Position numbers and translations under genes: made by a program
The notes under the pieces: generated by a model
The model's input: only the letters and a program-made list of their open reading frames with translations
Databases searched by the model: none
What the model was told of the DNA's origin: nothing
Source of the DNA: Polytrichum commune
Taxonomy: Eukaryota; Streptophyta; Polytrichopsida; Polytrichales; Polytrichaceae
NCBI GenBank assembly: GCA_950295325.1
Contig: OX485807.1
Coordinates: 10,071,001-10,135,000, forward strand
Reading direction: 5' to 3'
DNA: 64,000 nucleotides
Shown: positions 19,276 through 56,118 of the stretch, piece by piece
Layout of the letters: each line of letters opens with the position of its first letter
Position numbering within the stretch: the stretch's first letter is position 1

Positions 19276-19590
19276 TCGAAAATTGCTGCCCTCTGCATCT
19301 GACTTCTCAAAAAAAAATTATCCATGTATTTTTGAAGGCCTCTTGTTCGCAAAATTCATAATTGAGAGCACTTTCATCTTCAAGGTCTGAAATCCAATAT
19401 ATATGTTCACTTCTCCCTAGTAATAAGCAATTGATTAGGATTTTATTCCCGAAGTGAAACCGTTGATAAAGCATGTCACTAACTTGGAAGTCAAAAATGT
19501 TACAAAATCCTCAGTAGCATTGAGGACCTTATAGTTTACGTGATTTACCATTTGAAAGGATCTTCATTGTTCTTAAATGGAACTGAAATT
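19276..19590 (+). repeat. Decayed half-copy of the fold-back element at 38.6 kb
   Basis: Blocks TTTTTGAAGGC, ATTGAGAGCACTT, CAATATATATGTTCACTT, AATAAGCAATTGA, GTGAAACCGT, AACTTGGAAGTCAAAAA and ACAAAATCCTCA match the left arm of the element at 38562-39931 in order and orientation. Only one arm is present and no end or target duplication is clear, so it is an old truncated relic. Confidence 0.85.
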
Positions 19591-19599
19591 AGTGCACTA

Positions 19600-20985: not shown

Positions 20986-20990
20986 CTAAT

Positions 20991-22878
20991 TGTCAGCCAC
21001 AAACCCCCACCCTTGTGTGTCGTAATCCGGGTGAGAGCCTATGGCTCACATGTACTTGTATGACTTCCCTTAGCCCTTGGAATCAAGCTCCCAATGTTCC
21101 ATCCAATTAAGCATAAAACACACAACTTTTATTCACAACACACAACTCCACAAGTATTCAAAATTACTTTCCTTCTTTGTAGTTATTTGCACTACATCAC
21201 ACTCTAAGCCCTAACCATGCTACAATAACTATGCTAAGTGCTTGTCACATGTGCATCGAGGTCATCCCTTGTGCTAGTCATAATGTGACTTTAATTCAAT
21301 TAATATTTCATGCAACTTCACATGAATCACTCCCACTCTACACATCCTAACCTAACAATGCAACTCCACACAATAGGAGGAACCGGCTTTTCACACCTGT
21401 GTTGCCTCTGCAACCTATGAGCTGACACCACCAGCAAGCCTTCCACCCCACAGGCACACCTCCCATCATCTAACACCCTTGAGCTCACAGTCTACCTTGT
21501 CCCGCAATTAGTCCCAGCAACAGGGTCTCGGTAACCATTGTCTCGGCGAAGGCAAGCCCAACCCCTCACAGACCCAGCCACTTGCACCCTTCACATTTGT
21601 GGCAGCAGTCACCCTCGTGGCTGCATCCCCTCAGACTCCCTCCATTCACCGCTTGAATCCGTCAAGTCCTTCGCGATTAAATTTGCACCGGCACTTACAC
21701 ACCCTCGGAACCTGTGCAGAGCGGCCCAGGCTATGCTTGGCGGCCCATGTCCACACCCAATCTTGGTTCCGAAGTCCTACTTCCAGTGCCCAGATTAAGC
21801 AATCCACTGCATTGCACAAGCCCACCAGTTTCGCCCCTTCTGCAATTTCCCAGTGAGCGATACCACTCCTCACCTTACCCCACAAGTCATCAACTTGCGC
21901 GTGGTTCGCGGCAGCGCAATCCTAACACTCCTCCCTCATTAGCTGAATCCTCATATCCTTCAAGCTTGCGGCTGCAACATTGTTTTTACCACAACCTCGC
22001 AGTCGTTGAGATCTGCCGTATAATCACTGACTGCTCAACCCTTCCAGCTCAATCCACCTCTCCTCTTTCTTGCAACCCAATTCCCCGAAAACAGATGGTA
22101 TCCACCCAGCGCACAGAGTGCAATTCGCGGTTCGCTCCCTTTCGGGGTGTTTTGACAATGTTGCCGGCCATTCCTTAGTTGCGGTTTAAGTGAAGTAGTT
22201 CTACTCTGCGGTGGCCCTCGATTTGTATTAGGCCATGATTTCTCAGCCCAGGTGCACTCCCCTTGTGTCTCCTAGAAGTTTGCTAGTGGTATGTCGATAA
22301 ACTCCGGTTGTCCTGCCCACCTGTGAATGTCGAGCTCCTCCCACACACAGATTCAAAGCCACAAGAAAAATCGATATTCTAGCATCCCTCTACCTGCTTC
22401 CCTCCTCTCGTGTTTCCACGCATCAAGGCACAAGCCGTCTTCCTCAAAACCGAGGCATTGCTGGATACCTCTGATTGCTGGTCAGCAGCCTCCGCCCTGC
22501 ACTTGCAGTTTTTTTTACTCTCTCCGCAACTGCCAACAAGTGAGTGAGAGGGAGGATCCCCCTTCATTCATAGATCCCTGGATTATCCACAAAGCCCTAC
22601 CCCCCCTAAAACGGACAACAAGGGGCCCAATTCAAACGCTAAAACCCTGAATTTGAACTTTTTGCCTTAAGTACTACCTAACCCTCAACTAATTCCTATA
22701 TCAATTAAGCTATGATCCTAAACTCTAATTATCTCAACACATGAGCTTAAAGTAACTCAATTCTAAGCTAATGAACATCACTCTTTTTATCTTTTCAAGA
22801 ATTCAATGCAATCACAAAGTCTAAGTTTTAGAAAAATTAGAAGTTAAGAACACATGTGGGCACAATATTGGGCTCACA
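20991..22878. mobile_element. LTR-type insertion, 1888 bp, probable solo LTR, with 5-bp target duplication
   Basis: The insertion begins TGTCAGCCACAAACCCCCAC and ends GGGCTCACA, so it has the TG...CA ends of LTR elements. It is flanked by CTAAT on both sides (20986-20990 and 22879-22883). The same start (TGTCAGCCAtAAACCCCCACCC) and end (GGCTCACA) bound a second insertion at 28252-31948. The interior is C-rich, with no gag, pol, primer-binding site or polypurine tract recognised. A solo LTR is favoured over a short non-autonomous element, because I found no repeated LTR pair inside it. The strand is unknown. Confidence 0.78.
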
Positions 22879-26237: not shown

Positions 26238-28251
26238 AGAGAGAGAGAGACCCTCCACCAATAAATAACCTTGGTATGTACATATTTCCAGATATTAGAT
26301 GCATGTTAGACTTTCTGATTATCCAAGAATGACGAGCATGCATCCACTCTTGGTATGTATACCAACCCTCTTTTGAAATCTCTCTACCCTCATATCTTAT
26401 TATACAATCCAAGATACTATGATATTGGATTGATGTCTCTCTCATATACCAAATATCAGTCAAGCAAAGAATGTATGTAGAACATAGTGAACATACCTTG
26501 AAGCACAGTAATAAGGTCCTTTACCATGAATTTGACTGCCGGATATGTTGTCCTTGAGAGAATCTTAATTACAAGTTGTAAAAGTTTATGTTTCCGGAAT
26601 CTATTGTTGGCAAGTGTAGAAATTAAAGTTTCAATTTCATTTTTTGCTAGAAGAATGTCACTGGACTAATACAATATAAGTACTGTTTGTCAAACAATGA
26701 CATCCTATACTTGTTTAACTGGCCTATTGGAGTTAAACTTGATGTACAATGTATATGTAAAAGGGGGATTTCGCCTTTTATTAAACTTTTGAAGTTTCTA
26801 AACTCCATTGTCTTCGTTGGAAATTGTTATTAGCACATTCATGAAATGTGCTTTGATACCCGAATTAGGATTAACCATAGAGAAATTAGATTCTTCAGTC
26901 TTAATTTCTAGAATGTGTAGAAAATAAATCTAATATGGGTTATCCATGGTTCTAGGTTGTGTGGGATCAAGAAAAAATTGTGCATTTCCGATATTAAGCC
27001 AACACATGTCATCAATGTATTAGAATGCATGATTAAACCTAGTCATAATATATGTTCTTCCAAGTTTAGTCAATCTCTAAATAAACTTGATTTCAAATGA
27101 TATTAAGTATAGGTTACACCATAATAGGGAACATGATAAACACATTCGTATGCCTAATACTTGTTTCCATACTTGATTGCCCAATCTCACGAAGCAGTTT
27201 GTAGTGAGCCATTTGTATAATGTTAGAAATTTTTCCACTGACATGCAGTGCCAGTCCCCATAGTTGGGGCATGTAGATGCCCAAACCGCTTTAGAAGAAG
27301 TTCCAGTAGCGTTAGTCCGATACCAAATATGTGGTTTGGACCTAGGGTGTCTTCGTTTGAAGTTTTTTACCCCTAGTGAGGTTATGAATTTCATTGCCTT
27401 AAATAAGGTATCTTGTCAATTGACAAAATATGTTGAGGACATGTTGAGGTAAATTGAGATAAAATTCATTTATGGAGTTTATAATCTAATAAATGGATGT
27501 GTCCACTTGGAGGAAGTTTTTATATCCGGTGGTAGTGGTTTTAGCCCATTACTTAACTTCATCAAGAAGTGTCATGGTAGCTATGGTGACTAAAGTAGCA
27601 AAGTTAACATACATGGACCCAAATGCATTTGAAATCCACCTATATTTCTTTTTGTGGGATTTATATATAGCCATGATATATGGTAGTTTATGGCTATCTA
27701 TGGATAAGTCAAATATGACTTCCTGAATTTTTGCATGAAGATTAGAAGTGACCTCATCAATAGATAGCCATCTATCATTGTCCAAGCAAGGTAAAAAACC
27801 ATGGTTATTTAGTCTTTGATATGCTTATTTTCTTATGTGATCAACACATATGAAACATGCATTATTAGAGGCCTTGTCTAGTCCATAAATATATACATGG
27901 TTGAGAAGCCATTCTAACTCATTATTGATAGTTTTGTTTGCAAAAATATAAGTTTGAGAGTACTTGAAGCCAAACTTGCTTTGCATGTAAGCTTCAAGTA
28001 ATATCATTCTGCATATGTAGCGTACCTCCTTTATCGTTATTTTCATGTCCACAAGGTGTGTGATGTTCAATAACTCACAAACCTGCAAAAAAAATCATGT
28101 GCCACTTTGGATAGCTTCATGTATTAATGTAGGTCTTAAGGGTATTTGATTAAGGCCCATCTTGAGGGTGTGTCTTAATCCTTTGTGTTGAATGATGGAT
28201 AAATCCATTGTTCTAACATGCCCATTGCTTTCTTTTTCCTCAATTGTACAT
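26238..28251 (-). mobile_element. Penelope-like retroelement copy 1, 3' part (reverse transcriptase)
   Basis: Minus-strand reading gives, in element order, GLDKASNNACFICVDHIRK (28.08-27.83 kb), LPYIMAIYKSHKKKYRWISN (27.79-27.55 kb), KWLTTNCFVRLGNQVWKQ with LLWCNLYLIS (27.39-27.08 kb) and the catalytic YIDDMCWLN (about 27020-26992). The DKA-N and LP-x-KxHK motifs, the C-N-L-YL block after the GxPMG box (here degraded to GIRMC) and YIDD are the order seen in Penelope-like reverse transcriptases. The same blocks occur in copy 2 at 43-45.35 kb. Frameshifts and stops make it inactive. After the thumb I see no GIY-YIG endonuclease. The 3' end is a GA/TC run at 26238-26250. The upstream part continues at 31954, beyond the nested insertion. 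Confidence 0.8.
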
Positions 28252-30059
28252 TGTCAGCCATAAACCCCCACCCTTTTGCGTCAATGGTCATGGTGGAGGG
28301 TTAGGGCTCACATGTCTCTGCCAACTCCTCAGCCTCAACAATCCCTTACCCTTACTTTCACATATCCCCAAATATCAACCATACTCTTTATATTTAATTT
28401 CACAGGGCCTTAGTATTGAAAAATACTTATGCACCCTTGATACATGTTACACCATCACCACACTAGCATCCCCTTTCCCTTCTAAATTCCTGCCTAATCC
28501 CATGTGCTACTACACTAATTACCCCCCCCCCTTACTAGCACCTTGGAGGCAACCACTTCCACATCAAAAGCCACCATAACCCCCTGGACTAGTACCATCC
28601 TCTAACCGGAACCCAGCTCCCCTCGATGCCTCCCCTCTTCTACCCAACCAGTCAGCAATTTCCCACCACCGGTGATCACAGTCCTGGTAAGCCTGGTGGT
28701 GCCACCTCCTTCGGTGACCCTTCTGTACCGAGGCCGTTGGCCTTCCTAGCACCTCTTTCACCTCACCCTCTACCCATTCGGCAGACAACACCACCTTCTC
28801 CACCTTAACTCTGGCTACCTGTCCTCGCCTCCTTCCTCAATGCCACGTTCGGGGCAGGTTGCAATGCGGTGGACGCATTGACCTTGAATCAAAGCCCCCT
28901 CTCACGACTACAATCCCCTTGCCACTACCCTTCGCTCGCTTGCAGAATTCCGCATCCATAGTCACTCGCATATTCAAAACAAAGGACGTATTGATAATGT
29001 GAGATCTAGCTCTCGGGTGGGAATTTTTGTGCGCTACCGCAATCCTGAAGATACCCCCTTCCCCAATATAGCAGCATGCGGTGGTTGCGCCTCCCTCCGC
29101 TGATTCAACCAGTATAATTCCAGTTTTGTTCGCGCCTTGCAGTCCCTCAATCCTCCCCTTTTCGGAGGCTGGCATGTTTCCAACATCCCAGCTGCTCAAC
29201 CCAACCACATACACTTTGTAGAGCTCAACTACCTCCATTTGTTCCTAGGGATGACCGTATCGTAGTGACTTAGAGCGTCGTCCGGATTATGATGACCTAA
29301 CTACCTAATTTCCTCGTTGTGCGTTATTATCGTCTCGCGGTTGTCCTTTCTTTTACATTCGATAAGTAGCCAAGTAGTCGTCTTCAATGAGCCAGGTTAC
29401 TTTTCGTTCCAAAACTTTTCCCTCTCTTGCAAGTCTTATCTTTAGTCTCCTAATTGTTACTTTCCACCACCGGAACTCCCTTCCGTTGAAACATGTGTTG
29501 ATAGTATTTTAACAATAATGAAGTGATTGTTAGATACTCTTTTTCCATGTAAAGGAGATTTCTTCTTCACATGTGTAGTAATGCCTCTACTAATCTTCCA
29601 TTTTCTTATCGGCTCTTGAGGAGGCATCCTTGAGTTTATTAACTCACTTAGTCATTCATCTCATAATAATTTTCTTTCCCTCGTGTGTCCTTTGGTTCCT
29701 CAATGTTTATAAAACACAACCTATTTTTAGAAAAACCTCTTAATATTATTTCTTCGAGTATCCGAATGGTCATAAGTTTCTTCAAGTCGCCAAATACCGA
29801 GTAACAAGTAACTTCCTCTTCAAGTGACAAGTATCCAAGTCACACGTAACTTTCTTCAAGTATCAAAATCATCTTCCTCAAGTGTGTATCAACTTATTCT
29901 CACATGTGTATCAACTCTTAAATTAACTTCCCATTTCCTTATCAACTTTTGATATGACATCTTGCATTTTCTCTCTAAGACTTACTATGTCCCTCAATCT
30001 TCAACTCTTCTCTATAAGTTAGTTTTCCCGTTTTATAATCATCTCTCAATATAATAAGT

Positions 30060-30245
30060 TATATTTTAGTCCCATCTATAAATAAATACATTATATTTTT
30101 AATGCAACTGTTTAGTTGTTTGAAGGTCTCGGTTATAAATAGATACAACCTATTTTTAGTGTATGCTTTTGGTTGTTTGAAGGTCTCAGTTATAAATAGA
30201 TACATGCTATTTTTAATACATCCTTGAGTTGTGTGAAGGTTTCAT
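30060..30245. repeat. 57-bp tandem repeat, about three copies, inside the LTR-type insertion
   Basis: GTTGTTTGAAGGTCTC occurs at 30115 and 30172 and as GTTGTGTGAAGGTTTC at 30228. Each is linked to TATAAATA-ATAC and a TATTTTTA block. The period is 57 then 56 bp, and the repeats are diverged. Confidence 0.85.
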
Positions 30246-30551
30246 ATATGCCAATCAATAATACGATCATGTAGTCATAGATTTAGTGATCATTACGGAA
30301 TGAAATGATAGTAGAATGAAGTAGATATCTATATCTATATATATATATATAAGGATTAATTATGTTTGAGTTATGTTTGAGCAAGTCTACTTAATCAAAT
30401 TTAGACTGTATATAGATATGCGCCATCATGAATTGTCCTTAATGCACTCTTCCTATCATCCTTACTCATAATCATAACTTCATAATTCTCACAAGTTTTC
30501 GGTAACCAACTTCACTCATTTACACAATTGCCTTTCAACACTACAATTGCT

Positions 30552-30716
30552 CTCACCTCATGTGAGTTTCTATAACCTCTCAATCACACAATTTCCTTTC
30601 AACTCTTACAACTATCTCACCTCATGTGAGCTCCTATGATTATTCTTACAACTATCTCACCTCATGTGTGTTTCTATAATAATAAATTTCCTTACAACTA
30701 CCTCACCTCATGTGAG
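30552..30716. repeat. Four near-palindromes CTCACCTCATGTGAG in the LTR-type insertion
   Basis: The 15-bp motif lies at 30552, 30616, 30656 (last bases changed) and 30702, each preceded by a CAACT-like block and followed by a TCCTAT/TTCTATAA-like block. The spacing is irregular (64, 40 and 46 bp), so this is a decayed tandem array. In an LTR, repeated palindromes of this kind could be enhancer sites; that is inference. Confidence 0.7.
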
Positions 30717-31953
30717 TTGCTATAACACTTCTCAAGTCTCATTCACAACCTCTCAACTTAACTATGTCTAAGTTAATATTTTACTTTGCCTCCACCTTGA
30801 ATATCTATGAAGAAGGTTGAGCTTGAAGCTCATATATTCCAAAATGGTAAAGGATACAAAGGACCTAGCTCTTGTGTAGCCTATCGACGTGAATAAGGTA
30901 AGGTGTTCTAATTCTAATCCTAAATCTATATATATTAAGAGGAGGTGTCTAACATGTGCCGTCCTCTTAATTATCATATCTTTAATTATTCTAAGAAAAT
31001 GTAGATAGCTCTTCTGGACATCCTCGGAAAGAGCTTATATAATCCTCATCTTCTTTTACATTCAAAATATGGAAGATTGTAGCCTAAAATCTATATATGT
31101 AATATCTAGGTAAGGGAGGATTCTTAAGGCTAACCAAGAAGTCATTTCTTGGCCCTTAATTACTTCCACCTCCGTTTTCCTCACCTATGTGGCCTAGGCG
31201 AGTGTTTTACACCATGAAGCCCACTAATCCTAAGTGGCTTGCTATGTGGCTTACTAATTTCTCTAATAATGCTACTAATGTTTACTTGCCTCCTACATAA
31301 CCTACTAATCTAATGGCTTACTAATTTTGGCCATTTAACTTTTCGTAGTTACTAATTTAACTATCTTCACTAATTTGGTAACTGGTTCGTTGGCCCTCGT
31401 AACCTCATTACATAATCCTTCTCATGTGGCGATTTTGGTGATTCTCCCCTTTCGTCGTTGAGATTGTGGTGAACACACTTCACCCCTGCCGCCTCATTGC
31501 GTCACTCCCTCAAGCGGTTGTGGACTGTATTGGCTCCTGGCTATCTCTCACCAGCCGCATTCCTCCCTCGTAGTCTATGTGTCCCCCCTCGTCCTCTCCT
31601 GCCACCGCTAGCAATCCCCCTGGAGGCTCTCACCTCCTCCCGCACCAGCACTTGATCCGCGGTTGGAGGGATTTTCCTCCTTCCTTAAACAGCCAAACCC
31701 GAGGCCTTAAACAAACACTAACCCATCCCTAACTAACCCCACACTAAATAACTCAATCCCAACACCACGACTTAATCACACTTCTAGTTGCCTTCCGTAA
31801 TACTAAATTCAAAACCTTAATTCAACTTAAGTCTAACATGAAATCCCTTTTAAACAAGGCAATCAACTAACTCTGTAATTATTAATTTTTATGCTTTTCT
31901 TGCTTTCAAAATGTTAACTTGAATTGTGAGCATGACTTTAGGCTCACATACAT

Positions 31954-32460
31954 ATAGATGTGTCCTCATCAATGAACATACTGAATTGTTTAGAGGAGTT
32001 ACATATACAATTATCCTCTACCATGTTTAATTTTGAAATATCAAATCTCTTGAACACCATGTTTGGTTTGTAGCAAAACTTTGACACATTTGGGTGGTAG
32101 GTCCAAACAAACATTATATTAAGTAGCGCATGTATAAATTGGGGTATGGATAGAAACATGAAAATTTCCGAAAAGATTTATTTCATGTTAATCCATTCCA
32201 GTGCCCTACTGCAATATAACGCATGGACAAAACCGGTGTTGTTCAAAAAAATTCTCTAGTTATGATTTTTCTACCAAGAAAATTGTATTCGAGACGTCTT
32301 TGTTCACCTGTGGTCACATTAAAAGGTAAGACAATATGAATACAAAATCTATATGTTGTATATGTAATTTGCTTGGAACTATTCTATTGCTTGGAATTAT
32401 AAAATTAGCTATGCCTGTATATCCTCAACCCATAACAAAATTCTTCCCTTAAGAGGTGAT
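31954..32460 (-). mobile_element. Penelope-like retroelement copy 1, 5' part
   Basis: The minus-strand frame 32159-31944 contains WTYHPNVSKFCYK and CICNSSKQFSMFID. It matches copy 2's SNVSKYCYK and CLCNKAKRFQKFID, the N-terminal region that precedes the reverse transcriptase. Upstream non-coding sequence up to about 32.4 kb also resembles copy 2 just ahead of its first frame (GTAG...GCACT...TTAACATGA). It is separated from the rest of the element by the LTR-type insertion. The exact 5' end is not determined. Confidence 0.72.
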
Positions 32461-32717
32461 AGAGTACCGTTATTGCTAGCATGCTCACTTCCTGTATTTG
32501 GGGTCGAAACTGTTCCTGGACCTGGTGTGGATTCCCCACTCACCAGGCCAGCTGTGCCTCCCCACAAGCCAAAGGCCCTACCCGGGGACTGGACCCCGAG
32601 GTTAGGGTTTCATGCCGCAGCTCGCCCACCACCGCGTCCTCTATAGGCTTGGCCGCCCTGTGTAGGGTTGGCGCCACGGCCTCTTGGGCTTCCCCTTCCT
32701 CGGCTTCCCTGAGTCAT

Positions 32718-34080
32718 TCAATCTGAGGGAGTCGAATTTAAGTTGAGTTTATGTCTTTTGAAAGGGGACGGTGCCTTGCTGGGTGAACCCGGGTTTGCAA
32801 GGGAGAATTTTGGACCCTTCAATAGTCTTTCAATCTTGCTTGCAATAGGTGATTCAGTGATGTCCGTGAGTAACCTTTGATTTGGATTTTCAAACAATTG
32901 TATTGCTACCTTCATCATTTGCTCTCTCCCCGTGTGAAACACTATTGCTGCCTTGACTGCTACCCTCGCAAATTCTTGTATCCAGATCATGAATGCGGCA
33001 AATCGCGTTACTGTAGTTGGGTAGTTTGGGAAGAAGATGTCTACCTTATTGACCATCGTCCATATTGCATGATCGAACTAGATTATGGATCCTTTACACC
33101 CACTTGTAGCTCTTGGATTACATAGACAACGTATGTAGGGTCTCTGGACATTCCACATTTCTGACAAATGCGAATCTTTGCGATTATGTCCTGTAGGCAG
33201 ATCTTGCTTGGTGTGAAGTTTCACATCCAAGGTTGTGCACTTAGCGTGGTCGAACATTGTAAGAGGGAAAACATGCATTAAATCCATAGGTGCTCTTAAA
33301 ACACCTATGTTGTTCAATGCTTGTTTTTTACAACATTCAACTTCTTGATATGAAAACCCAGCCCATGCTTTCCACATAGGGATTGAGATTGGAGCCATCA
33401 GATTGGTGTTACCTATGGCCCACATCCTATGTTGAAAATTTGTCACCAAAAGTTCCACACTCCGAGGTGGTTTGAGTGGAACTATTGGCCCCTTGTTGGC
33501 CACCATGGTGTTTCTATGTTTCTCTACTTGTGAATATTGGATGCCCTCACTAAAATCTTCTAGGGCGCTTTTATCAGCCGCATAGATATTCATCTTAGCC
33601 AGCAGAGGATGCATGTATGTGGTTTCCAGAGTTTCTGGTCCGAGCACTATCCGTGCCGCATCCACAGTTGATTCATCCTTGTTTGCCAGCTTGAGAATTG
33701 TTTCGATCTTCTGAGCGAGTTGGGCTGATTTGACAGCTTCTAGCTCGTCTTCCAACAGGATGTCGGGGAGTCTGGTATGTGCGCTCTTAAGCCTAGCTAC
33801 CGTCCTGGTTCGGTCTGCTCTGGCTAAAATGAAAAGTGACGTCCAAGCAACAATATCAAGGGAGCAGAGGGATCAAGGGATCAAGATCAAGGTGTCCAGG
33901 AGCAGAGGAGCATGCACACCTTCTTCGTCGACGTCATTGAGTGCCGTCATATTCAACTCTTGCACGCAGCTATGGAACTCCGGCACATCGATTGCTGTTA
34001 AAGTAGTATGGACATCAGGATCTCTTTGGTCATTGGAAACGACTATTTTCAATTGGGGGAAAAGACAAGTGGCATGCTTC
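32718..34080 (-). pseudogene. Broken long ORF of unknown family (possible retroelement protein)
   Basis: Reading the minus strand, an open frame starts near 34080 (TAIDVPEFHSCVQELNMTA), crosses one TGA at about 33876, continues through LEDELEAVKSAQLAQKIE and PISIPMWKAWAGFSYQEVE to a stop near 33078, then resumes in another frame at 33056-32718 (VNKVDIFFPNYPTTVTRF and GREQMMKVAIQLFENPNQRL). Together this is about 450 codons with two lesions. The length and a consistent codon bias suggest a once-functional protein. I do not recognise the family. A gag-like or DIRS-type structural protein is possible but unsupported. There is no signal peptide or membrane segment. Confidence 0.4.
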
Positions 34081-34099
34081 TCTGGCCCGCTCCGAACTT

Positions 34100-37000
34100 T
34101 CCCGCTCCAAGCTCTCCCGCTCCGAGCTCTCTCTCTTGTTGGTGGCTCCTCCTATTTGCTTGTTGGCTATCATTGCTTCTGCTTGGCTTCTAATAATCAT
34201 CTCATCATATTTCTTGATTTATGCTAGAAGCTCCTCGGTGATGCTGCTGTCTGGAGTAAGAATTCCGATGGTCCAAAGTCTTGTAGCAATTCTTGGTATT
34301 AATATGAGAGCGGTCTGAGAGAGGTACTCATTTAAAGTATTATGAGGCTTTTGTTTCGTTAATTACTGCTTGGTTATTAGAGTGTACTCATGAGCTTCGC
34401 AACAGTTGCAGTCGATTTGACTCAAATATGCCATCTTCAAACCAGAGAACTCTCCTCGTACTGGTTCCTCCGTATCTCGCTCCCTTTTGGTGACTCGCTG
34501 CTATCTCTCAGTGACTCTTCTATTTTCTCAACACTCTCTCTTTTCGATCAACTTATGTGTAAGCACTCACCATTGTTCAATACACTCTCTCTCCAATCAG
34601 CTTATGTGTAAGCACTCACCCTGTTGCTAATATGTCTCTCACTTGCTTGGATCAACAGGCAGGGAGTTGAGTTACTGGAGCAGAGGAGGAGACAACTTGG
34701 GGTTCATGTGCTTCTGTGAAGACGGGTGCAAGCATCCTTATTTCTTACTTCAATGCTTCGGACGCTCTTCCGACGATTCCCCCTTGCTGCTTCTCATCAG
34801 TTCTCGATTTATCAAGTTGTAGGACTTATTAGCATGTAGGACTTATCAGCCCACAATTGAGCCCTTCGATGTTTCTTTGAACTTTTTGCCCAGCTCCCAT
34901 GCAAACTGTCCTTCCCATGGTGAGTGGTTTGTGAAGTAAGCACAAAGGCCGACATCGATTAGCGACGAAGGAAGGAAAAAAATAGATAAAAAAAATTCAC
35001 TGGTGCTATGTGGATAATGACTCCTATAAGAGTGTTCATCTCTTTCCGGTGATTCTCTCTACTACTTTTGCTGATCATCGTTTGCTGGTTTGCCTTGCTT
35101 GTGCTGTGTGAATAGATATCTAGACAAAATATTTTATTATTTCTTCTTTGCTTGCCTGACCAAATTTTTTGCTTCCGCTGGAAATCTGGTTCAAGGGCTT
35201 CCCTTGACTACCGCTCCCTGTAGTTAGGTTTTTAGGTTTGGGTTCATACTCTCAAAAAACCCCAGGGAAGACTAAATAAGTGTCAGGTGTAACTTTAGTG
35301 TGTCATAATAAGATTAATTGATAGGTTGAAATGGTTACGAGATGCTTTTGACAGTCAATTAACTTAGGATTCACTTTCTCATCTATACTTAGTGACCACT
35401 TGTGAGGGTTACTTAATTTATAAAGTGTCTAAGTGTTCATAAAATAAATTATCATCTTGTTTTATTTACCAAAAGTCTAGTAACGAGTAACCGGGACCGA
35501 GTCTTAAGCGCCTTAATCGGCCTAAGTCAGTGTCACGAGTCTAGTACCGAGTCAAGCGCCAAGAGTCTAGAGTCTCAAGTAGACAGTATGAGTAGCCTAG
35601 TAACGAGTCTAGTAACCAATAACCAATAGACAGTCTTGTGTCATAAGAAGCGTCTGGACACATTAGCCACTGAGAAAGGATAGGTTATATACCTGCCCTT
35701 ACTGGAACTCCCAACCAATATGGGATAAAGGCGCACTTGACTCCCGCGACTCCTTCTTCATAGCTTCTTCCTCGCGATCGACCACTTCTACGCTTTTCGA
35801 CTCTCCTTCTTCACGGTCGGAAACATGTTCATCACAACACTTCTTCCCTCAAATGCATTTGAACTTAGACACCTCATGATGGGAAGTAATCACTACGCCA
35901 ATTCCATGCATCAAACAAAGTGTTTCAACAGAACAAACCTCGCACCTCCTTCGGCAGCGATCTCAATTACATGCTCCCGAATTCTGTACAGTAAAAGAAA
36001 TCCTCCACGACCGCATCCGATTTTCTCAGGGAAGAATCACCTTCTCCTTGAATATTTGCTGGTTGACTTCTCGATTAATTAAACGGGTTGCTCTCATCCG
36101 AATTCTTTAGGAGAGATTCCTCTCTTCCTCTACATCATTACGCTCGTTATCACTAATCCCTAGATTCCACGATAAAAAGCTTCTCCTTTCTCAGGTATAC
36201 GTTTGCGAGTGAAATCTTAAGGTTATCTATTCCCACTCAAGCAGGTGACTTTTACCAAGCAAAGGGGATGACTTCAGAACCTTCGGCCAGGCTAAGTATT
36301 TCATTTCTTTTCACAAGAACTCCCTGATCCCCTTATCCCTCAATCACACAACACCTGAGAGACTTACTGAATTCTGAAGTTAATCGTGATCCGAATAAGA
36401 TCTCTATTAGTGTTCCTGTTTCATAATTCAAAGTTCAAATACTAAACTCATATCATGGATTCAGGCTCCTCACTGTCCCTACACTTTCTTGCTCTTTCCC
36501 ATGTCCGTCATCATCAAGGTGTGAAAACCTTTCATCACCACAAAGAGACTCAATTTGTCCTTTCACAAGAACAAACCTTCAGAGTTCACAATCATATTAT
36601 ATTTCATTTAGATGTTGACTTCCTACCACTTCAAATTCCCTCAGGAGTAACCCCAAAGACTCTTTCAAGGTATGGACACTACTTTCTCTTTCTTCTCGAG
36701 AGGAATATTAGACTTACACTAGATGATCTCGCATAATTAAACAAGTCTTGTGATCACAATGGAATTTCACATTCCACTTGCAACGTGCAAATATAATTGA
36801 ATACAGGGATCTAAGAGACGCAAACTGTTTCCCACAGTTCACTCTTTATTACTTATATTATCAAGAGACTCTTCAAGATTAAATCGGGAATTCACTTCCC
36901 TGAAAAGACCACCCAAGTAATGGGTATTGCACTGGTTTGTACGAGAGTGTAAATTCTTGGAAGCTTATTATGTGACTGAGAGTTTCTCACTCCCCTATCT

Positions 37001-38540
37001 GTCACTGACTCCTTCACAAGAGTAGGATGAATTAGATTTCCTCTTGACTTACTCCGAATTAGGGACATTCACTGTAGCTTTTTAAAATCTTAAGACACTG
37101 TCCAAGAAGTTTTGGACTAGACGGTTTACAATACAACCATGAAACACATACGAGTTCCTTCAAGAGTTTCACACCCTTGAATAAAAAATTCCACAATAAC
37201 AACAATGCTCACACTTCCCACTTTCACAATGGTAACAACTCCATGACACACTCCAATCCAATCACCAGACTCTCAATTTCACATTCACCACTCACTGAGG
37301 AAGGATTCGATAATTGCACTTTGTATTAATATATTTCGAAAGATGTGGTACAATAAAATTAAGGGCTTCACACCCTGAGAGTTGACAAAAACATTCACTC
37401 TCTTCACGAGAGGAAAAATCAAAAACTTACAATGCCCCCCTTGTCTTCTCCTTCCTTCTTCTTATCTTTCTATCCTCAAAAGGTGGTGATTGTCTGCAGC
37501 TAGGATTCCAAGTGCTACTTCTTATTGTCACATGTGAATTCCATGCCCCCTGATATCCTTCTAAACTCTGGGCAGCAAAGGAAATTCTTCTTTCCTAGTT
37601 TGTTTCCATTTCGGAGTGACTAAGTGTCTAATACTTCACTGTTTTACTAGTCTTGAGTAAAATTTATCATTCATTTACATCTCAAAACTAAAACTTAAGC
37701 ATTCAGACCAAAAAATGGTACCACACTCCCCATTTCAAAACAACAACTATGGCTGCTTTTACAATTAAATTGTCGTGCACTTTGCACACATTGTACCTCT
37801 CAGTGTGCTTGCATAGAAAAACCTACTGTCGCCGGCCCGCAGTCTCGTGTGGGAAGTGGTCCTCAAGCAGGGAGAGACCCCTGATATGAAAGCAGCTCCC
37901 AAGGAGTGTCCGGGGGGGGGGGGGGATTGAGCATAATCGGTCGAGATCCTGGTGTTTCCAAGTTCCATGTAGACTTTTTATTTTTATTTTTATTTTTTTG
38001 GTAGTAATTTGGGGTATATTCGATACATTCCTCTAAAATGGTTGGTAATCTGTAAGTAGTAGTTGCTGCTCCCCGTTCATTGCTCCGAAATGGATTCATC
38101 AGGAAGAGGACGCACATTGAGCATCATCAATCAGCAAGTAAGAAAGAAAAGGGCATCTGAATCGCCCTGCAACAAATTAAAGGATAGGATAATGACTGAG
38201 TCCTATCGGTTAATTTGTAAGTCAGAACTTGTTGTAGATTCTGTTGCCTTTTGTGGCGGAAGTGTGGTGCACATGCTGGTGGGACAGGGGCGCGCATTCT
38301 GTAAGTTGATGCCTGTGGGCCGCGTGGCAGGTAAGTTTAGCACTTTCGATTATTTTATTCCATGCCGCAGTCCTTAAACGCATCCAAATCCAACTCCTGC
38401 TTGAGTCGCTTGGTAAAGTTGCAGCACAATTGGTAAGGCTCCTGGTGACCTTTCAACTCAACTAGGTCCTCTGTTACGAGCTGCCGGTTATGTCACCTCA
38501 ACCGGTTCATCTGTTACCAGCTGCCGGCTGGTTCTCTCCC
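34100..38540. other. Unassigned repeat-like sequence without supported genes
   Basis: It holds a 49-bp direct duplication at 34551-34620 (CTTATGTGTAAGCACTCACC twice), an array-like stretch of CGAGTCTAGTA words at 35470-35620, and a G16 run at about 37910-37925. A segment at 37930-38060 resembles 58040-58160 (GTGTTTCCAAG...GGTATATTC...CCTCTAAAATG). No reverse transcriptase, transposase or conserved host protein was recognised. Much of it may be LTR-retrotransposon non-coding sequence. Confidence 0.4.
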
Positions 38541-38561
38541 CTCAACCAGTTCCATTGCAAC

Positions 38562-39931
38562 GGCTAGGGTGAACCAGCACCTACACTCGTACCTTCGGGG
38601 GATGAAGGCCTCGCGGATGACACTGAAAACGTCATCCTTCTTTATGGGAAAGCCCCCCGACAATTTTTTTGCACCCGACCGAAAATTGCTACCCGCCCGC
38701 CCGATTTCGAAAAAACTAGTGTACTTGCATTTTTGAAGGCTACTTGTCCACAAATCCCATATTGAGTGCACTTCATTTTCAAGGTCTCCAATCCAATATA
38801 TATGTTCACTTCCATTGAGTAATAAGCAATTGACTAGATTTCATTTTCAAAGTGAAACCGTCAATAAAGCATGCAATTAACTTGGAAGTCAAAAACATTA
38901 CAAAATCCTCATTAATACTGAGGTTATAATTTTTGTCACTTACAATTGAAAGGGGCCTTGTCATTCTAAAATGAAACTAAAATTCATGATTTATTTATTT
39001 TATTTTAAATATAATATCATGTATTCTAGTATAATGTATTTTTAATATAGTATATACTATAGTATAATATTTAATATTATACTATATATTTAATACCTTC
39101 TACAATCACAAAGTTTTCATACGCATTTAAACTAGTAAAGTAAGATTGAATGCAACTAAGTCTAATAATTTATGGTTAATCCTAATGAATCGTATTCAAG
39201 CCCAATTAAATCAGAAAATATGCGTACCAAATTAATTAAACCTAATTAATTATAAAATGTACTTACTGGAATTAATCATGATTTAAATGGAATTAACTAA
39301 TTTATGATTAATTAGGCATAATTAATTTGGTAAGCATATTTTCTTATTTAATTGGGTTTAATTAGGATTAATCAAAATATATTAGACTGAGTTGCATTCA
39401 ATCTTACTTAACTACTCTAAATGCATATGGAAACTTTGTGATAGTAGAAGGTATTAACTATATTCTATTAAAATATTAAAATATTAAAAATAAAATAAAT
39501 AAATCATGAATTTTAGTTTCATTTTAGAATGACAAGGCCCCTTTCAATTGTAAGTGACAAAAATTATAACCTCAGTATTAATGAGGATTTTGTAATGTTT
39601 TTGACTTCCAAGTTAATTGCATGCTTTATTGACGGTTTCACTTTGAAAATGAAATCTAGTCAATTGCTTATTACTCAATGGAAGTGAACATATATATTGG
39701 ATTGGAGACCTTGAAAATGAAGTGCACTCAATATGGGATTTGTGGACAAGTAGCCTTCAAAAATGCAAGTACACTAGTTTTTTCGAAATCGGGCGAGCGG
39801 GCAGCAGTTTTCGGTCGGGTGCAGAAAAAATGTCGGGGGGCTTTCCCATAAAGAAGGATGACGTTTTCAGTGTCATCCGCAAGGCCTTCATCCCCCGAAG
39901 GTACGAGTGTAGGTGCTGGTTCACCCTAGCC
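38562..39931. mobile_element. Fold-back (Mutator-like) element, 1370 bp, with near-full-length inverted arms
   Basis: The ends are GGCTAGGGTGAACCAGCACC on the left and its complement GGTTCACCCTAGCC on the right. Both flanks carry CATTGCAAC (38553-38561 and 39932-39940), a 9-bp duplication typical of Mutator-like elements. Each arm is about 660 bp, nearly identical, and the complementarity runs almost to the centre (about 39246), leaving a loop of roughly 45 bp. Both arms can encode the same short peptide (MHSIWDLWTSS...), which is a by-product of arm identity and not evidence for a gene. It has no transposase, so it is non-autonomous. Decayed relatives lie at 19276-19590 and 52375-52765. Confidence 0.88.
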
Positions 39932-40365
39932 CATTGCAACTAGCTGCCGGTGCTCTCAATCTCAACTGGTTCATCTGTAACTAATCTGCGAGTCTCCCCG
40001 ATCAGTGTTGCTGCCGTCGGTGTGTGCTGGTGTCAGTCATCGGAATCCTCTATACCTCTGTAAACCGAACTAACTGCTAACCTATGTTGATTAATGGCTA
40101 ACCTCACTCTGGTTACTACTAATCTAATACTGTTAACTCTAATTTAATCATTGGTTAACTCTAAATCTAACATTGATGAACTGTTAATATGTCCTATTGA
40201 TACTCTTGTTTATGTAAAATGTTTCAGCCCTTGCTAATTTGCTTATCTGCTAACCTCTTTCCTGCTCTGTTTACCTATTTAGTGTCGTCATACTTGACTA
40301 ATGCTAAACATACTTTTGTGGATGTTTAGCATTTCACCCCCCCCCGCATTGAAGAGATATTGCCC

Positions 40366-42920
40366 TCAGGATCTGTAGTTTGATGTTCGTGCAATGCAGG
40401 GGTTGTAATTTGGAAGCATCAAAATAGTGTGTTCTCCATGTGTATAGAAATGATGCCTTTCCAGAGTAGCAGTTGCATACTCCTTTATTCTAAAGGTTTG
40501 AAATTGGGTTGGAAATGAGGTTGGGTGATGTTGGACCAGCCATGTGTGGTTCTCAGCTGCCTCTTGGAAAATACTTGTATCTTCCCTTCTAAACACTGCC
40601 ATTGCTTTGTTGAATTCCTCCTTGTGTTCTTCAATCAACTCTTTGACTCTGTTGAATTCAATCTCTGTATATGGCTTCATATTGGGCAATGGATTTTTGA
40701 AGTTTTGATTTGAATAATTAGCTGATGATGTTCCGACATCCATCTTATTGCCCTTAAACTAAATATGGTTATAAAGAAAGACGGATTTATAGCTATCAAT
40801 TCTGCAACTCCTAAGGGTAATCTAAGATCCCTTAGAGCTCACATAAACATCAATGTGTCCTTCGCAATTGAAGTTGACCTCTGTTATAGTCTAACAAACT
40901 GCTGCTTTGTCATTTGTGTGCCAACTTTGAGATGTGGTAACCCTGAACTCATCAAATTTATTTCCTGGGTAAATTGATAAATTTGTTTAATAGACACTGC
41001 TCGATTTAAGCTGCAGTATACTTCTTTCAGTGCATCTCCCCCTTCGGTTGCCCATTCCTTTGGCAATTGTTATTTTTTCTCCTGATCTACACATTCTTGT
41101 ATCCCTTTAGATTGGAACCTGAATGTCTCATTCTCTTCTGTTAGTTTTTCAATCTCCTTATGTAAGTTCTGGAGTACATGCTTTGTTTTTGCCGACACCT
41201 TTTCTTGAAACTTCTTAAGTTTCACTGCTTCGGAATTTGTATTGGCAGCCCATTGTTCATAAATTGTTGACCTGATCATCATCTGTATGTTGGCTTCTTC
41301 ATCTCTCTGATGTTGTTTTTCTTGATTTTTGAGATCCGTCACCTGATCCTTAAGGGTCTAGATCTGAATTAATTGACTATCCTCATTGGATTTCAACTGG
41401 ATTCTCAGCAAGTTTTGTTTTTGCTCCAATTCCGTCACTATGTTTTGTGGTTTAAGGCATCATTTTGGCTATCTAGCCTTACTTTTGCTAACTCTGCCTC
41501 AGCCTTCTCATACTGTTGTTGTTTGGTATGTAAGTAGTCTTTTAACTATGCTATTTCCTTTCGCAAGGTTTCTTCTTCCTTTCCTTGTATTTATGTTGTC
41601 CGGTCATGTATATTTTTTTTGAGTTGAGATACCTCTTGAACTAAACGGTGGTTCTTATCTTTTTCTAACTCTATTTGTTTGTGCAACTTTGAATTCTGCT
41701 CTTATAAAGTTGTCATCCCCTCATCCATCTTTTTTCCTTCCGGTTGACACCTCTCATCATGCTGTCCTAATTTAATCTCCTCTGTTATGCCTTTCAGCTT
41801 ATCCCACAATTCTGGACCAGCATGCCTTAACATATTTGACAATAAATCTCAGTACGCTTTGATGAAGTACATAGTTGCCCAAAAACTTGACCTAGTTCAC
41901 TCTGGTTGGTCTTCCTACTCACCTTTTCTTGGTCCCGAGGTGGTCGCATTCCATTCTTCAGTTGAACTTGGTTACGTTCACACCTCCCTTCATTTCTTGG
42001 TTGTGTTGCTTGGGTGCATTCTCCTTTGGCTTCTAGTTTTGTTGTTTCAGACATGAGCTGAGTATTTTTTTCCAATTTTTGAACCTTCACAGCGTAAATC
42101 TCAGGCTTCAGATTGGTAACCTCTTCTCCTCTCGAAGTCAAGGTATCATTGGATGCTGCAATACCCTCATCAATCTTCTGGGTCAGAGATGTGCTGCTAC
42201 TATTATCACCATGCTTTCTTTTTACCCCAGTAACAACTTGAACTTCAGAAATGGCGTCTGAGTCAAACAATCCAGCTTCTGCTTCTTGTTTTACAGTAAG
42301 TAACCATCTAGCTGCCATCAAAAGCTTGAGATGGGTACCGATCAGGGACTTCTTCAAATATTTTTTTTCCTGGACAAATCTTTGTCCAAGAGCATCAATT
42401 CTACTCTCATATTATCGTAAAGCATCGTGGGCCAATCTATTAGCTCACCGTTCAGGGCAGCACATATGCGAGTTATAAACTCTACCAAAACTGTAATTGT
42501 ATTCTCTCTCAGTAATAAAAGTGTAACCAATAATTTCAGGGGCTTCTTGAATTCCTTTATGATGCACTCTTCGATGTTCACTACTGTTTTCTTTCCAACA
42601 TTTGGAAACAAATCACTCACTTTCCACACCTGTTCGGAAGCAAGTCTCTCTGATCGTTTAAAAAATATCAAATAAAATATCGTTTTCATATATTTAACCC
42701 AGTCATCGGGGAACAACACCATTTTTTTGTTGTTAAGCCTCGACTCTCTGTATCCGTTGCTCATATTGTCTACTAACTGCACCATTACATCCTGGTGAGC
42801 ACTTTCCCACTCCACACGATTTAAAAATCGGTCTAGTTCTAATTTATGAAGTAACGCCTCTTCTCCCTTTATAAGCTTTGGTTGCACAGCCCTGGCCTCT
42901 ATGCCAAATCTAAGTCTAAC
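40366..42920 (-). pseudogene. Broken long ORF with coiled coils, unknown function, truncated by a Penelope-like element
   Basis: Minus-strand frames follow one another over 2.5 kb. The first (42.9-42.35 kb) has FLNRVEWESAHQDVM and KMVLFPDDWVKYMKTIFYL. The second (42.36-41.83 kb) has HLKLLMAARWLLTVKQEAE and a charged heptad-like stretch. The third (about 41.34-41.07 kb) is a strongly charged coiled coil. The fourth (40.74-40.37 kb) has MKPYTEIEFNRVKELIEEHK. Stops and frameshifts separate them. The frames that join at 42.35 kb overlap by a few bases, as after a single indel. The N-terminus has no ATG and is cut where copy 2 of the Penelope-like element begins (about 42.93 kb). I do not recognise the family. 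A repeated-element protein or a decayed host gene are both possible. Confidence 0.45.
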
Positions 42921-42929
42921 TTAAACTAT

Positions 42930-45323
42930 TCCCAACATACTTATGAGTTGGATGACATTAAGTAGGTCTGAGAATTCTACAACTTGAGTATCTGTATTTA
43001 ACTTATAAGTTTTGTGATTACAGAGGACGACAATATTTTGTCCCGTAATGCATTTGGAAAGAATTTTGAATCAAGAATTAAAAAATCAGATAGCTCTGGC
43101 ATAATTCATATCAAGTACTGTAGCCGAGCACTATAATGAATTAACATGATAATATTATTTTCCAAAGTATTTAGACATTTCTACATACCTTATGTTATAC
43201 TAAACTTACTTAAATTGATGTTTGCTTGGAGCTTCTTTTCAAATGTATCCAAATATTGTTATAAATATGTTGTATTTTTTAAAGAATTTAGTGTAATACT
43301 TCCCATCAATGGATTTTATGCATGCCTATGTAATAAGGCCAAAAGATTTCAAAAATTCATTGATCCCAAAACTATAGATAATACTTTGGTTAATCCAATG
43401 GCACATGTACGTACCATGGACACCAACATTATTCATTATCTTGGACTTAGGAAATTTTTTACATTAGGACTAAACCATGTTTCTTTAAGAAATACTAACA
43501 TTAAAAATTTATTCAAGTGGTGGTGGATATTTTTATGTAAGTGTGTTAGGTAGTGAGGCTAAGAGGGTGTTTGGATATCCATAGTGCTATAAAAATAATA
43601 CGTACAAGATGTAAAGACATCCTCATTTCAGCCTTGAAAACTAATATGTATGGGTTTAGGTACTTTAAATCCTACTTATTCTTTGATAAAGTTGTTGACA
43701 ATGAATTATCATGGATATGATAAACCAACCAATAATGCATGTTTTATTTATATCTATTATATAAGATACCAAACCCTTGCTAGATTGAATGGATAGGATT
43801 TTAAGCCATGTCAAAATAATGACATTTGGGAGTTTATTGAAGTAATCACTAGCAAAATAATATCCGATTTATTAGCAATCATACCTTAACTACCCCTTAT
43901 GTGAGGAATAATTATCTTACATAATGACAATTTATAAGTTCCATAAGAAAAAATAAAGGTGGATATCTAATGTATTTGGATCCATTTATATTAATATAAT
44001 CACTCTCTTAACAATTTTCTACTATGTCAATTCTAGAGGAAATTAAGGAATAGGCCCACACGAATGTTGAAGGCAACAAAAGATTCTTAAAGGTTGATAC
44101 GTCGTTATATTGGATCATTGATTCAATAACTGACTTTATTCTAAATGTGCCACATATGATCGACAATATTTATGTGGTAAATATTACGAAATATTTTGAA
44201 TCCATACCAATACTAGGACGAGACACACTATATGAGGTAATTGAATTTATTACCTCATTAGGTGTTTCTAACATGGAACGTAAATTTCTTAAATCTGAAC
44301 AATTCTTTTGGATCAAAATAAATGACAAATGGGTTACTCTTAAAGCAATATGGATATTTTCTGTTCCGAGGCATGGTAATTGGTTACCTTTGACAATTAC
44401 TAAGTTCTTAATGCTCCATAAGTGGCTTACCACTAATTGTTTTGTACGTCTTGGGGATAGAGTTTTAAAACAAATTCTAGGCATCCCTATGGGTTTTTTT
44501 TGCTCTCCATTATGGTGTAACTTGTATCTTTTATCATAAGAGATAAAGTTCATTCAAAGACTTGCGAGACTTGGAAAATCAGATTTTATGAGCAAGTTCA
44601 AATTTGTTTTTAGATACATTGATGATCTCTGTTGGTTAAATGTAGGGGATGCAAGAATATTCCTTGACCCCACGTAACAAATAATTCCGGATAATTTTTT
44701 TTAGATTTATCCTCTTGACATTATTGAAATTAAACCAGAAGTTTTTCAATTTTCCCAAGTATTACCAAAGTATGGCATTATAGCACATTCCATGAATGTA
44801 TCTATTCATGTATATGAGGAAACTTCCAGACAATGCATCATATGGAAGTTTGACAAAAAACGAGACTTACCTTTTACGTACACGCAATTTATCATGTTTA
44901 AATCAAACAAGCCAGTTAAACAAGCCTATAACGTGGTAATATCTTAAATTGTTTCCATTCTTTATTTATCCAACCATGCATTTGTAGCGGCCCAAGAGGT
45001 GTTTGCTCTATTTACAACATTATGAAGTAATGGATTCCGCATCCAAAAGTTAAAGCAGATCACGATCTTATTCTTGATGAATAACCACTTCCATGCAATC
45101 AAGTTTTGCAAAAATGAACTAATTCTCCTACTCAAAGGTATGTGTATGACAACTATTTCAAAGTTTTAGGGAGAACTTTTGAATCATGTATTACACATGA
45201 TTTACATGAGAGAATGAGTGAAAGAGAATTAACTAGAGGATTGGTATGCAAGCCCGGAGTGGATGCATCACTAGCGTCCACTCTTACAATAGAATTGCTT
45301 ACCATGGGTATATAAGGTGGTGG

Positions 45324-45350
<27 letters not shown>
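42930..45350 (+). mobile_element. Penelope-like retroelement copy 2 (N-terminal region and reverse transcriptase, no endonuclease seen)
   Basis: In element order: CLCNKAKRFQKFID with HVRTMDTNIIHYLGLRKFF (43.3-43.5 kb), a decayed HKKK-RWISN block (about 43.95 kb), KWLTTNCFVRLGDRVLKQ and GIPMGFFCSPLWCNLYLLS (44.4-44.54 kb), FRYIDDLCWLN with both catalytic Asp (44608-44640), and a thumb-like KSNKPVKQAYNVVIS (44.9 kb). These fit Penelope-like reverse transcriptases. About 230 codons remain after YIDD, and no GIY-YIG motif can be read there. Several stops and frameshifts make it inactive. The 3' end is a (CT)n run at 45324-45350. Copy 1 on the minus strand ends at the same kind of run. The 5' end abuts the truncated ORF at about 42.92 kb. 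Confidence 0.8.
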
Positions 45351-45355
<5 letters not shown>

Positions 45356-51850: not shown

Positions 51851-52374
51851 ACATGTGTTTCGGCTTAATCAAAATTGAGTCCCACCTTGATTGAAATGCA
51901 TGTACCATGTAGATTGTTGATGGGAACCAGAGCAGGAATAGGCGCATCTAATATACACTAATAGTGCCATGACAAATGTCCCTAGTTGCCAGTGCTAAAG
52001 CTCCTCACGGAATGAGCGGTTATGGCAAACTCTAGACATTGGTAATATGTTCAGGCCAACTTATGACTTAGAAAATTCATAGTGATCTCAATTTAAAGAA
52101 TGAAATTACCAACAAAAAATTGCAATCCTCATGAATATTATATTCCCACATGGGAAATATTTGCGTTCCCTTATACCTCTCTAGATCCGGCACATAATCT
52201 CTTCAATGATCAATTATGAACGCCTCTACTATAGTGTGGGTTACCGTTTGGAGTTACATAGTGCTATAACTTTTTATCAACATTTTTTTTACCAAGTAAG
52301 TTACATCATGTTCTTTGATGTGCATCACCCGTTAATCTCATAAACATACTTCATGAATTAATTGGCTTTATTTG

Positions 52375-52765
52375 TATTAATTAGGATTATTTAGACTTAA
52401 TTAAATTTAATCACACTTAATTAGTTTTAGTGTGTATGAATACTTTGTGAAAGCATAAAGTATTAACTAAAATATTATAAAATGAACACACTAGAAATAA
52501 ATCACTCATTTTAGTCCCACTTTAGAATAACCCTTTGATTGGTTAGTCACAAAATTTATAACCTCAATGCTAATGAGGATTTTGCAATGTTTTTGACTTC
52601 CAAATTAATTACATGCTTTATTGACGGTTTCACTTCGAAAAGGAAATCCCAATCAACCATTTACTTACTCACTGGAAGTGAACATATATATATCAGATTT
52701 TGAACCTTAAAAATGAAGTGCAGTCAATATGGGTGATATGGACAAGCGGCCTTCAAGAATGCAAG
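52375..52765. repeat. Decayed half-copy of the fold-back element at 38.6 kb (right-arm side)
   Basis: Blocks TTAATTAGGATTA, AAGTATTAACTA, CACTTTAGAATAACC, ATAACCTCAATGCTAATGAGG, TTTTTGACTTCCAA, GACGGTTTCACTT and GGAAGTGAACATATATAT follow the order of the element's centre and right arm. One arm only; the ends are lost. Confidence 0.85.
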
Positions 52766-53269
52766 GGTCAAGCCATGGTCCATGGGTCGACGCTTTGGCT
52801 TTTTCGGTGCTGCCCCCGCCCGCCGTCCTAATGCATGCAACGCGCATTGGAGGTATTTAGAAAGACCCCGGAATTGGGAGCCCTGATGCCCTTTACGAAA
52901 ACCTTATGGGCAACTAAGAGCGTGCCCACCAACCCGGGCATGGGGCATGCCAACGCCAAAAATGGGGCATCCCGGGTTCTTAGGTGGTGGTACCGGCATA
53001 AATTGAGCCCCACCAATGTCCGGTCTCCCATAATTTAGAACCGGCCCGGGTATAGTGAAGACCTCCCCAGCCATAAACGGTTCATCTAACGGCTCGCCAA
53101 GAGATTACTTTAATATCAGATACTTCAATATCCTACTTTATCACATGTCCGATAATAGGTGTCGTTGTCTTATTGATTGCTTCCTAATTATACCGGGGGT
53201 ATGCTTAGGTTTTGGTGGGCTTTGACTTAAGACGAGCTACCCCGTCCAAGATGGAGGGCTCCCCAAAGG

Positions 53270-53278: not shown

Positions 53279-53974
53279 CTATATACTCTATTTGGTGTAT
53301 ACCCGATCTGGTGGGGATGCTCTAAGGAACCAGGATTGTTCTAAGAAAGTCATGTCCACGTTCACCAACTTGTCTCCGGGTTGACACACAGCCGTAGGAT
53401 GTAGATACGATGGACGGATGAGATACTCCACCCCTCCCGTGGCTCCATCGGCTGTTAGTGAAGGCTCCGTGCTCTGAAGCAGACGGCCTGCAACCTTTCC
53501 ATAGCCGACCCTCGGATAGCTGCAGTGCATTTGTTTCCATTGAACTCATGGTATTGTGTTCGTGCCAGTGTTGGAAGAGTTGTTCACTATAAGTTGGGGG
53601 TGGAGATGATGTTGGGCATGATGGCGTGAAGAAGGATGCATGGCATAATGATCCGGGGTTTCAGTTTATACCACATTGGCAAGAGCTTGTTGGAAATCGG
53701 TCCAGTGTGACTTTTGTTTCTCAACATTCACAAACATTCTGGCATCGAAGAGCTGTAACCGGAGGAGTACTCTCTCGTTCGAGTGAGGTAGATCGTGGTT
53801 TCTACATCGTCGGAACCAAGAGTGCATGGGCGAAGGCAATTGCAAGGCAGCAAAAAGATCAGTGGCACTAACATGTGAAGCATTGACGGATGCTACTGCC
53901 AACAGAATCTTGACGAGGTCCAAAGGAAAGAACCCATTCTCATTTCAAAGTGAAGTAACGTCGGTGGGGTAGAA

Positions 53975-55759: not shown

Positions 55760-56118
55760 TAACATTACCCAACCCAATACTCTTAACTCCGGCGCGGAGT
55801 TCGATGCGGCTCCGATGCGGCTCCGGGGAGGTTCGGATGCCAGCTCCGGTGGGTTCGGGTGGGTTGGGGCAAAAATTGCCCCCTATTTTTTTGATTGGGT
55901 GGGGCCTTACTTGATCTCATAAGGGGCCTCCTAGAGTAATTTGGGGCCGTAGAACCCAAATTTAGCAAAAAAAAACCAAAAAAAGTCATCAAGGGGCCAA
56001 AACGGGGAGGGCCAAAAAAATGGACCCACCGGAGCTGGCATCCGAACCTCCCCGGAGCCGCATCGGAGCCGCATCGAACTCCGCGCCGGAGTTAAGAGTA
56101 TTGGGTTGGGTAATGTTA
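55760..56118. repeat. Perfect 94-bp inverted repeat, GC-rich, 171-bp spacer
   Basis: Left arm 55760-55853 begins TAACATTACCCAACCCAATA. The right arm 56025-56118 is its exact reverse complement. Arms are GC-rich (CTCCGGCGCGGAGTTCGATG and a doubled GATGCGGCTCC) in an AT-rich setting. No clear target duplication. Best read as a young MITE-like hairpin. Confidence 0.9.

Follow-up and report, generated by a model that had tools for sequence, protein, structure and literature searches.

The 64,000-nucleotide stretch of Polytrichum commune DNA that we analysed (the window) holds two dead retroelement copies. From their sequence we think it reasonably probable that they are Penelope-like elements (PLEs) of the C-x-C (Naiad/Chlamys) type, that they represent two diverged families, and that both are 5'-truncated. 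They probably belong to a known PLE branch rather than to a new kind. If this placement is true, it would be a new host record for PLEs with an N-terminal endonuclease, in which two old families would share a 3' junction with TC repeats. The lack of a GIY-YIG domain after the thumb does not by itself make a PLE endonuclease-deficient.

Copy 1 (minus strand, 26238-28251 plus 31954 to about 32279) is homologous to copy 2 (plus strand, about 43050-45351; Table 1). The first-pass annotation of this DNA had described two related copies, and frame comparison confirms the relationship: reverse transcriptase (RT) stretches read through stops share 147 of 303 residues in a gap-free BLASTP alignment. 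Frame readings of either copy, with X placed at stops, recovered the other when compared with the window (E=6e-86 for the RT and E=4e-20 for the C-x-C region), and the middle region between the two is likewise homologous. The annotation had located both copies and their 3' ends correctly, whereas detectable homology starts at about 32279 and 43050 and not at 32460 and 42930 as it had proposed. DNA identity over the aligned RT stretch is 57.5%. Differences at the first, second and third codon positions number 115, 91 and 180 over 303 codons, with synonymous distance saturated. Because they concentrate at third positions, the copies are probably members of two families that diverged mostly under protein selection while functional, before decay, and not daughters of one recent element. 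Within the 303 RT codons, copy 1 now has seven in-frame stops and copy 2 has five.

Table 1. Features of the two copies and of the insert that splits copy 1 (window positions)
Feature	Positions	Strand	Basis
Copy 1, 3' part: begins just past C-x-C, spans the RT and ends at the TC junction; contains many stops	26251..28251	-	Frame comparison, RT identity
Copy 1, 5' part: the C-x-C domain plus the roughly 90 codons that precede it	31954..32279	-	Homologous to copy 2 at 43050-43373 (E=4e-20)
Copy 2 as far as the TC junction, with N-terminal region, C-x-C and RT; interrupted by stops and frame shifts	43050..45323	+	Frame comparison
RT stretch of copy 2, five in-frame stops	44054..45139	+	Alignment to copy 1; RVT_1 below cut-off
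C-x-C motif (CIC), copy 1	32001..32009	-	Position checked; homologous place to copy 2
C-x-C motif (CLC), copy 2	43323..43331	+	Position checked; homologous place to copy 1
DKASNN block, copy 1	27861..27878	-	Position checked
YIDD motif, copy 1	27008..27019	-	Position checked
YIDD motif, copy 2	44615..44626	+	Position checked
Conserved block near 3' end, copy 1	26339..26363	-	25-base pattern
Conserved block near 3' end, copy 2	45243..45267	+	25-base pattern
TC run, 13 nt, 3' end of copy 1	26238..26250	-	TC/GA run scan
TC run, 28 nt, 3' end of copy 2	45324..45351	+	TC/GA run scan
LTR-like insert, 3,697 bp, termini TGTCAGCC...GGCTCACA, TACAT on both sides	28252..31948		Window sequence

The two copies share one order of blocks, namely C-x-C, HVRTMD-II-LR, DKxxNN, HKKK and RT. 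All the shared blocks read at first pass (C-x-C, DKA-N/HKKK, WCNLYL and YIDD-CWLN) were located in both copies. The counterpart in copy 2 of the DKASNN block reads DKPTNN (from 43719, plus strand), HKKK is present in each copy, and the motif pairs LLWCNLYL/SPLWCNLYL and YIDDMCWLN/YIDDLCWLN were found. This motif set favours the earlier assignment to a Penelope-like RT; approximate PLE protein sequences matched as a lead only, and Pfam support is thin. The RVT_1 model scored 17.9 bits (E=0.0027) on a 335-residue piece of copy 2, below its cut-off of 29.6; neither copy 1 nor a shorter copy 2 piece matched it. An unrelated model, W2, equalled that score on another, C-terminal piece of copy 2 (18.7 bits, E=0.0018, cut-off 30), which we took as a chance match. 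An AlphaFold2 prediction from the two-row alignment of copies 1 and 2 had a mean pLDDT of 34.7, too low to use. Rfam models at gathering thresholds and a tRNA scan, applied to the whole window, gave no match.

A PLE branch in which an N-terminal GIY-YIG endonuclease is joined to the RT by a C-x-C domain was reportedly described by Craig and colleagues in 2021. It is said in that work to comprise Naiad, from animals, and Chlamys, from green algae, spike mosses and slime moulds. We take a C-x-C domain before the RT to be a mark of this branch; copies 1 and 2 each have one. As comparators we used a Naiad-like protein (639 residues) and a Poseidon-like protein (295 residues, without the N-terminal part), both approximate sequences. 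The Naiad-like protein matched the RT of copy 2 at E=3e-20 and that of copy 1 at E=2e-13 (BLASTP, lead only). In copy 1 it also matched the middle region (E=0.001) and the C-x-C region (E=1.7e-4, C-x-C on C-x-C), with scores that none of 1000 shuffles reached in either region. Its match to the C-x-C region of copy 2 had E=0.033, in an alignment that does not cover C-x-C itself, and 21 of 1000 shuffles reached the score. The Poseidon-like protein gave E=0.003 with copy 2 and at best 5.0 with copy 1, a contrast that is partly a length effect because the two comparators are unequal. Judged by motifs and approximate sequences rather than by a tree, both copies would probably fall into the Naiad/Chlamys branch.

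The space downstream of the RT bears on where an endonuclease could lie. From the end of the aligned RT stretch to the 3' junction common to both, copy 1 has 80 codons and copy 2 has 61. A C-terminal GIY-YIG is unlikely because the 3' ends coincide at this junction and leave so few codons. The first-pass annotation had read no GIY-YIG after the thumb, and a Pfam search of the C-terminal region (six pieces in all, with three frames for each copy) agrees with it in finding none, in copies that are decayed. Since Pfam barely detects even the RT of these copies, this negative has low weight, and the geometry of the 3' ends carries more weight than it does as an argument against a C-terminal domain. 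We therefore find it very improbable that these are canonical PLEs with a C-terminal GIY-YIG (Penelope/Poseidon, Neptune, Nematis or Dryad). Dryad EN(+) elements are indeed known in conifers, according to PMC9033089, and Dryad is mentioned for loblolly pine in PMC9370799, but the codons that follow the aligned RT stretch hold no GIY-YIG match and the approximate canonical RT fits far worse than the Naiad-like one. The copies resemble Dryad, of the Penelope/Poseidon branch, in being Penelope-like elements in plants; unlike Dryad, which is reported EN(+), they show no C-terminal endonuclease, and their RT blocks appear to differ.

Both copies end at TC repeats. The scan found seven perfect TC/GA runs of at least 9 nt in the 64 kb. 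The longest (28 nt) forms the 3' end of copy 2 and the second longest (13 nt) that of copy 1, and both of these read TC on the sense strand of the element. On that strand the junction is GGTGGAGGG(TC)n in copy 1 and GGTGGTGG(CT)n in copy 2, and the GGTGG-GG junction followed by a TC run, pointed out at first reading, is thus present at both 3' ends. A conserved block precedes the run by 88 nt in copy 1 and by 56 nt in copy 2. Across the window its 25-base pattern, which was derived from the same two copies, occurs twice, once near each of the 3' ends, where 0.01 matches would be expected. Immediately before TC the copies resemble each other modestly (score 23; 15 of 500 shuffles did as well), and the flanks past the runs have no clear likeness (score 43, reached by 21 of 500 shuffles). 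Neither copy has a TC run of at least 9 nt on its 5' side in the window scan.

Insertions of the N-terminal-endonuclease branch are reportedly biased to microsatellites, according to the 2021 work of Craig and colleagues. We infer that an intact element would encode one protein, with an N-terminal GIY-YIG endonuclease, a C-x-C linker, a telomerase-like RT and a thumb. At a TC microsatellite or beside one, the element would nick the DNA, and the 3' end of its RNA would be reverse-transcribed from the primer at the nick, which would place the 3' junction at TC. DNA synthesis would then halt before the endonuclease part and leave 5'-truncated copies. We favour the Naiad/Chlamys type because the block order is the same in both copies, the 3' ends lie at TC, and 61-80 codons are little for a C-terminal endonuclease with a linker. 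Against it, neither copy shows a GIY-YIG, and the C-x-C region of copy 2 fits the Naiad-like comparator weakly. Against TC-targeted insertion, there is no TC run of 9 nt or more on the 5' side, as insertion inside TC with a target duplication could leave. The TC run may instead be a templated 3' tail of the element rather than its target. This question is separate from that of the branch, so the two probabilities are not additive, and we hold the tail to be a serious possibility that falls somewhat short of an even chance. The GGTGG-GG sequence directly before TC in two diverged families and the 5' sides free of a long TC run favour a tail, whereas the unequal run lengths (13 and 28 nt) and the microsatellite bias reported for the related branch speak against it, and two copies are insufficient to separate tail from target. 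Literature searches, which were not aimed at TC ends, returned no paper on a TC-ended PLE as judged by title or start of abstract.

At the 5' side, detectable homology between the copies begins 90-91 codons upstream of C-x-C. The next 120-130 nt upstream are shuffle-like (score 24, reached by 92 of 500 shuffles), and for the 400 nt farther upstream the score was reached by 361 of 500. Comparing the upstream 2 kb of each copy gave a score of 40, which 13 of 500 shuffles reached, yet it is below the 44 of the antisense comparison; with 2 kb against 6 kb, 80 of 500 shuffles reached the score. A common 5' end near 32402 and 42941 was dropped as a candidate, its upstream part not being significant against shuffles. 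The neighbours of the two copies are unrelated. Upstream of copy 1, at 32412-33998 (minus), one frame can be read over 529 codons with four stops; its longest open part has 264 codons (33078-33872), and it is RG-rich near its end. We rejected this stretch as part of the copy 1 element, given four stops in 529 codons against seven in 303 and a GC content of 48% against 34%; it has no Pfam match and no counterpart elsewhere in the window. Beside copy 2, an open frame on the opposite strand has its upper end at 42920, 43 codons from the copy. It is one of two overlapping frames (194 and 188 codons; 41827-42920, minus) that adjoin the 5' side of copy 2 and have no Pfam match.

With neighbours that differ between the copies, hardly any space is left next to either of them for an endonuclease domain. 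A Pfam search of six N-terminal pieces, which covered three frames of each copy, returned no match of any kind up to E=10, and hence no GIY-YIG. The copies stop being detectably homologous some 90 codons before C-x-C, where unrelated sequence adjoins each of them, so 5' truncation of both can explain the missing domain. The earlier proposal that the elements are endonuclease-deficient is not established: no GIY-YIG was found, but the N-terminal place is not recognisable in either copy. Its further suggestion, attachment to telomeric ends, finds no support in the window: the TTTAGGG dimer, with up to one mismatch, has 0 matches in the 64 kb, though this count does not tell where on the chromosome the locus lies. 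Both parts of that proposal, endonuclease deficiency and telomeric attachment, draw solely on the absence of a domain at the place where the copies give out.

A truly endonuclease-deficient PLE, either Coprina/Athena-like or from the C-x-C lineage minus its endonuclease, would start at exposed ends or breaks, with a TC end on the RNA aiding annealing. We regard this as rather unlikely. Pfam found GIY-YIG in neither copy and homology is lost at a similar point in both, but the Pfam negative has low power and a C-x-C linker is taken as a mark of the N-terminal-endonuclease branch. As they stand, the copies do resemble Athena and Coprina in having an RT with no recognisable GIY-YIG; they differ in that the window lacks the telomeric repeat and in that the C-x-C domain would point elsewhere. 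In favour of such an element, PMC9033089 records EN(-) PLEs from Selaginella, Pinus and Picea. According to PMC3846280, endonuclease-deficient PLEs use exposed ends as primers and occur mostly at the ends of chromosomes, which stands against such an element in a window with no TTTAGGG dimer; telomeric PLEs are reviewed in PMC12477314. A more specific form would be a plant lineage with a C-x-C RT that has wholly lost its endonuclease. Two or more old families of it would have kept a TC-ending RNA 3' end, and this end would anneal to TC microsatellites, or to breaks in them, for insertion in the interior of chromosomes; we judge this improbable.

The Naiad/Chlamys type, which we prefer, agrees with the copies in several features: C-x-C before the RT, the RT motif set, no C-terminal endonuclease and a 3' end at a microsatellite. 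It differs in that the copies show no N-terminal GIY-YIG and that the repeat here is TC, and the likeness is not tree-based. PMC12477816 reports Chlamys PLEs in Ectocarpus. Searches for relatives confirmed none in the collections scanned: the RT of copy 2 gave 7 pattern matches in viral and 46 in genome contigs, and the two-copy alignment gave 104 in viral contigs. Pieces of both copies compared with 10 loci gave two matches only (E=0.77 and 0.86). Two motif scans built on motifs attributed to Naiad yielded no match in the same collections. The RYIDDLCW-type scan returned nine viral contigs and one genome contig, all SYIDDLCW in stop-broken frames, which arose because the degenerate pattern also admits serine; the MGF-C-P-W scan returned one viral contig, in a broken frame. 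We also dismissed two glycerophosphodiesterase sequences from a PDB sequence search (E=0.2).

The gap in copy 1 is a single insertion. TACAT stands on both sides of the insert (28247-28251 and 31949-31953), and this 5-bp duplication together with TG...CA ends gives it the look of an LTR. Self-comparison of the window revealed no direct repeat at the termini of the insert, which is therefore perhaps a solo LTR. The left end of the insert (28250-28315) has a 77% match at 20989-21053.

Other repeats and frames lie elsewhere in the window. A dispersed repeat family occupies 19277-19594, 38680-39813 and 52332-52766, about 70-81% alike and in both orientations. At 743-1121 a 190-bp unit occurs in two head-to-tail copies that are 97% matching, and a perfect 95-bp inverted repeat (55760-55854 and 56024-56118) encloses a spacer of 169 bases. 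A DDE_1 transposase fragment lies at 11212-11616 (minus; Pfam E=7e-22). An uninterrupted 424-codon frame at 53954-55228 (plus) has membrane-like stretches by eye, with TraE (E=0.44) as its only match. At 2411-5506 (minus) there are open frames that may belong to a host gene with a thioredoxin domain; Thioredoxin scores 22.9 bits in 2414-4096 against a cut-off of 23.5.
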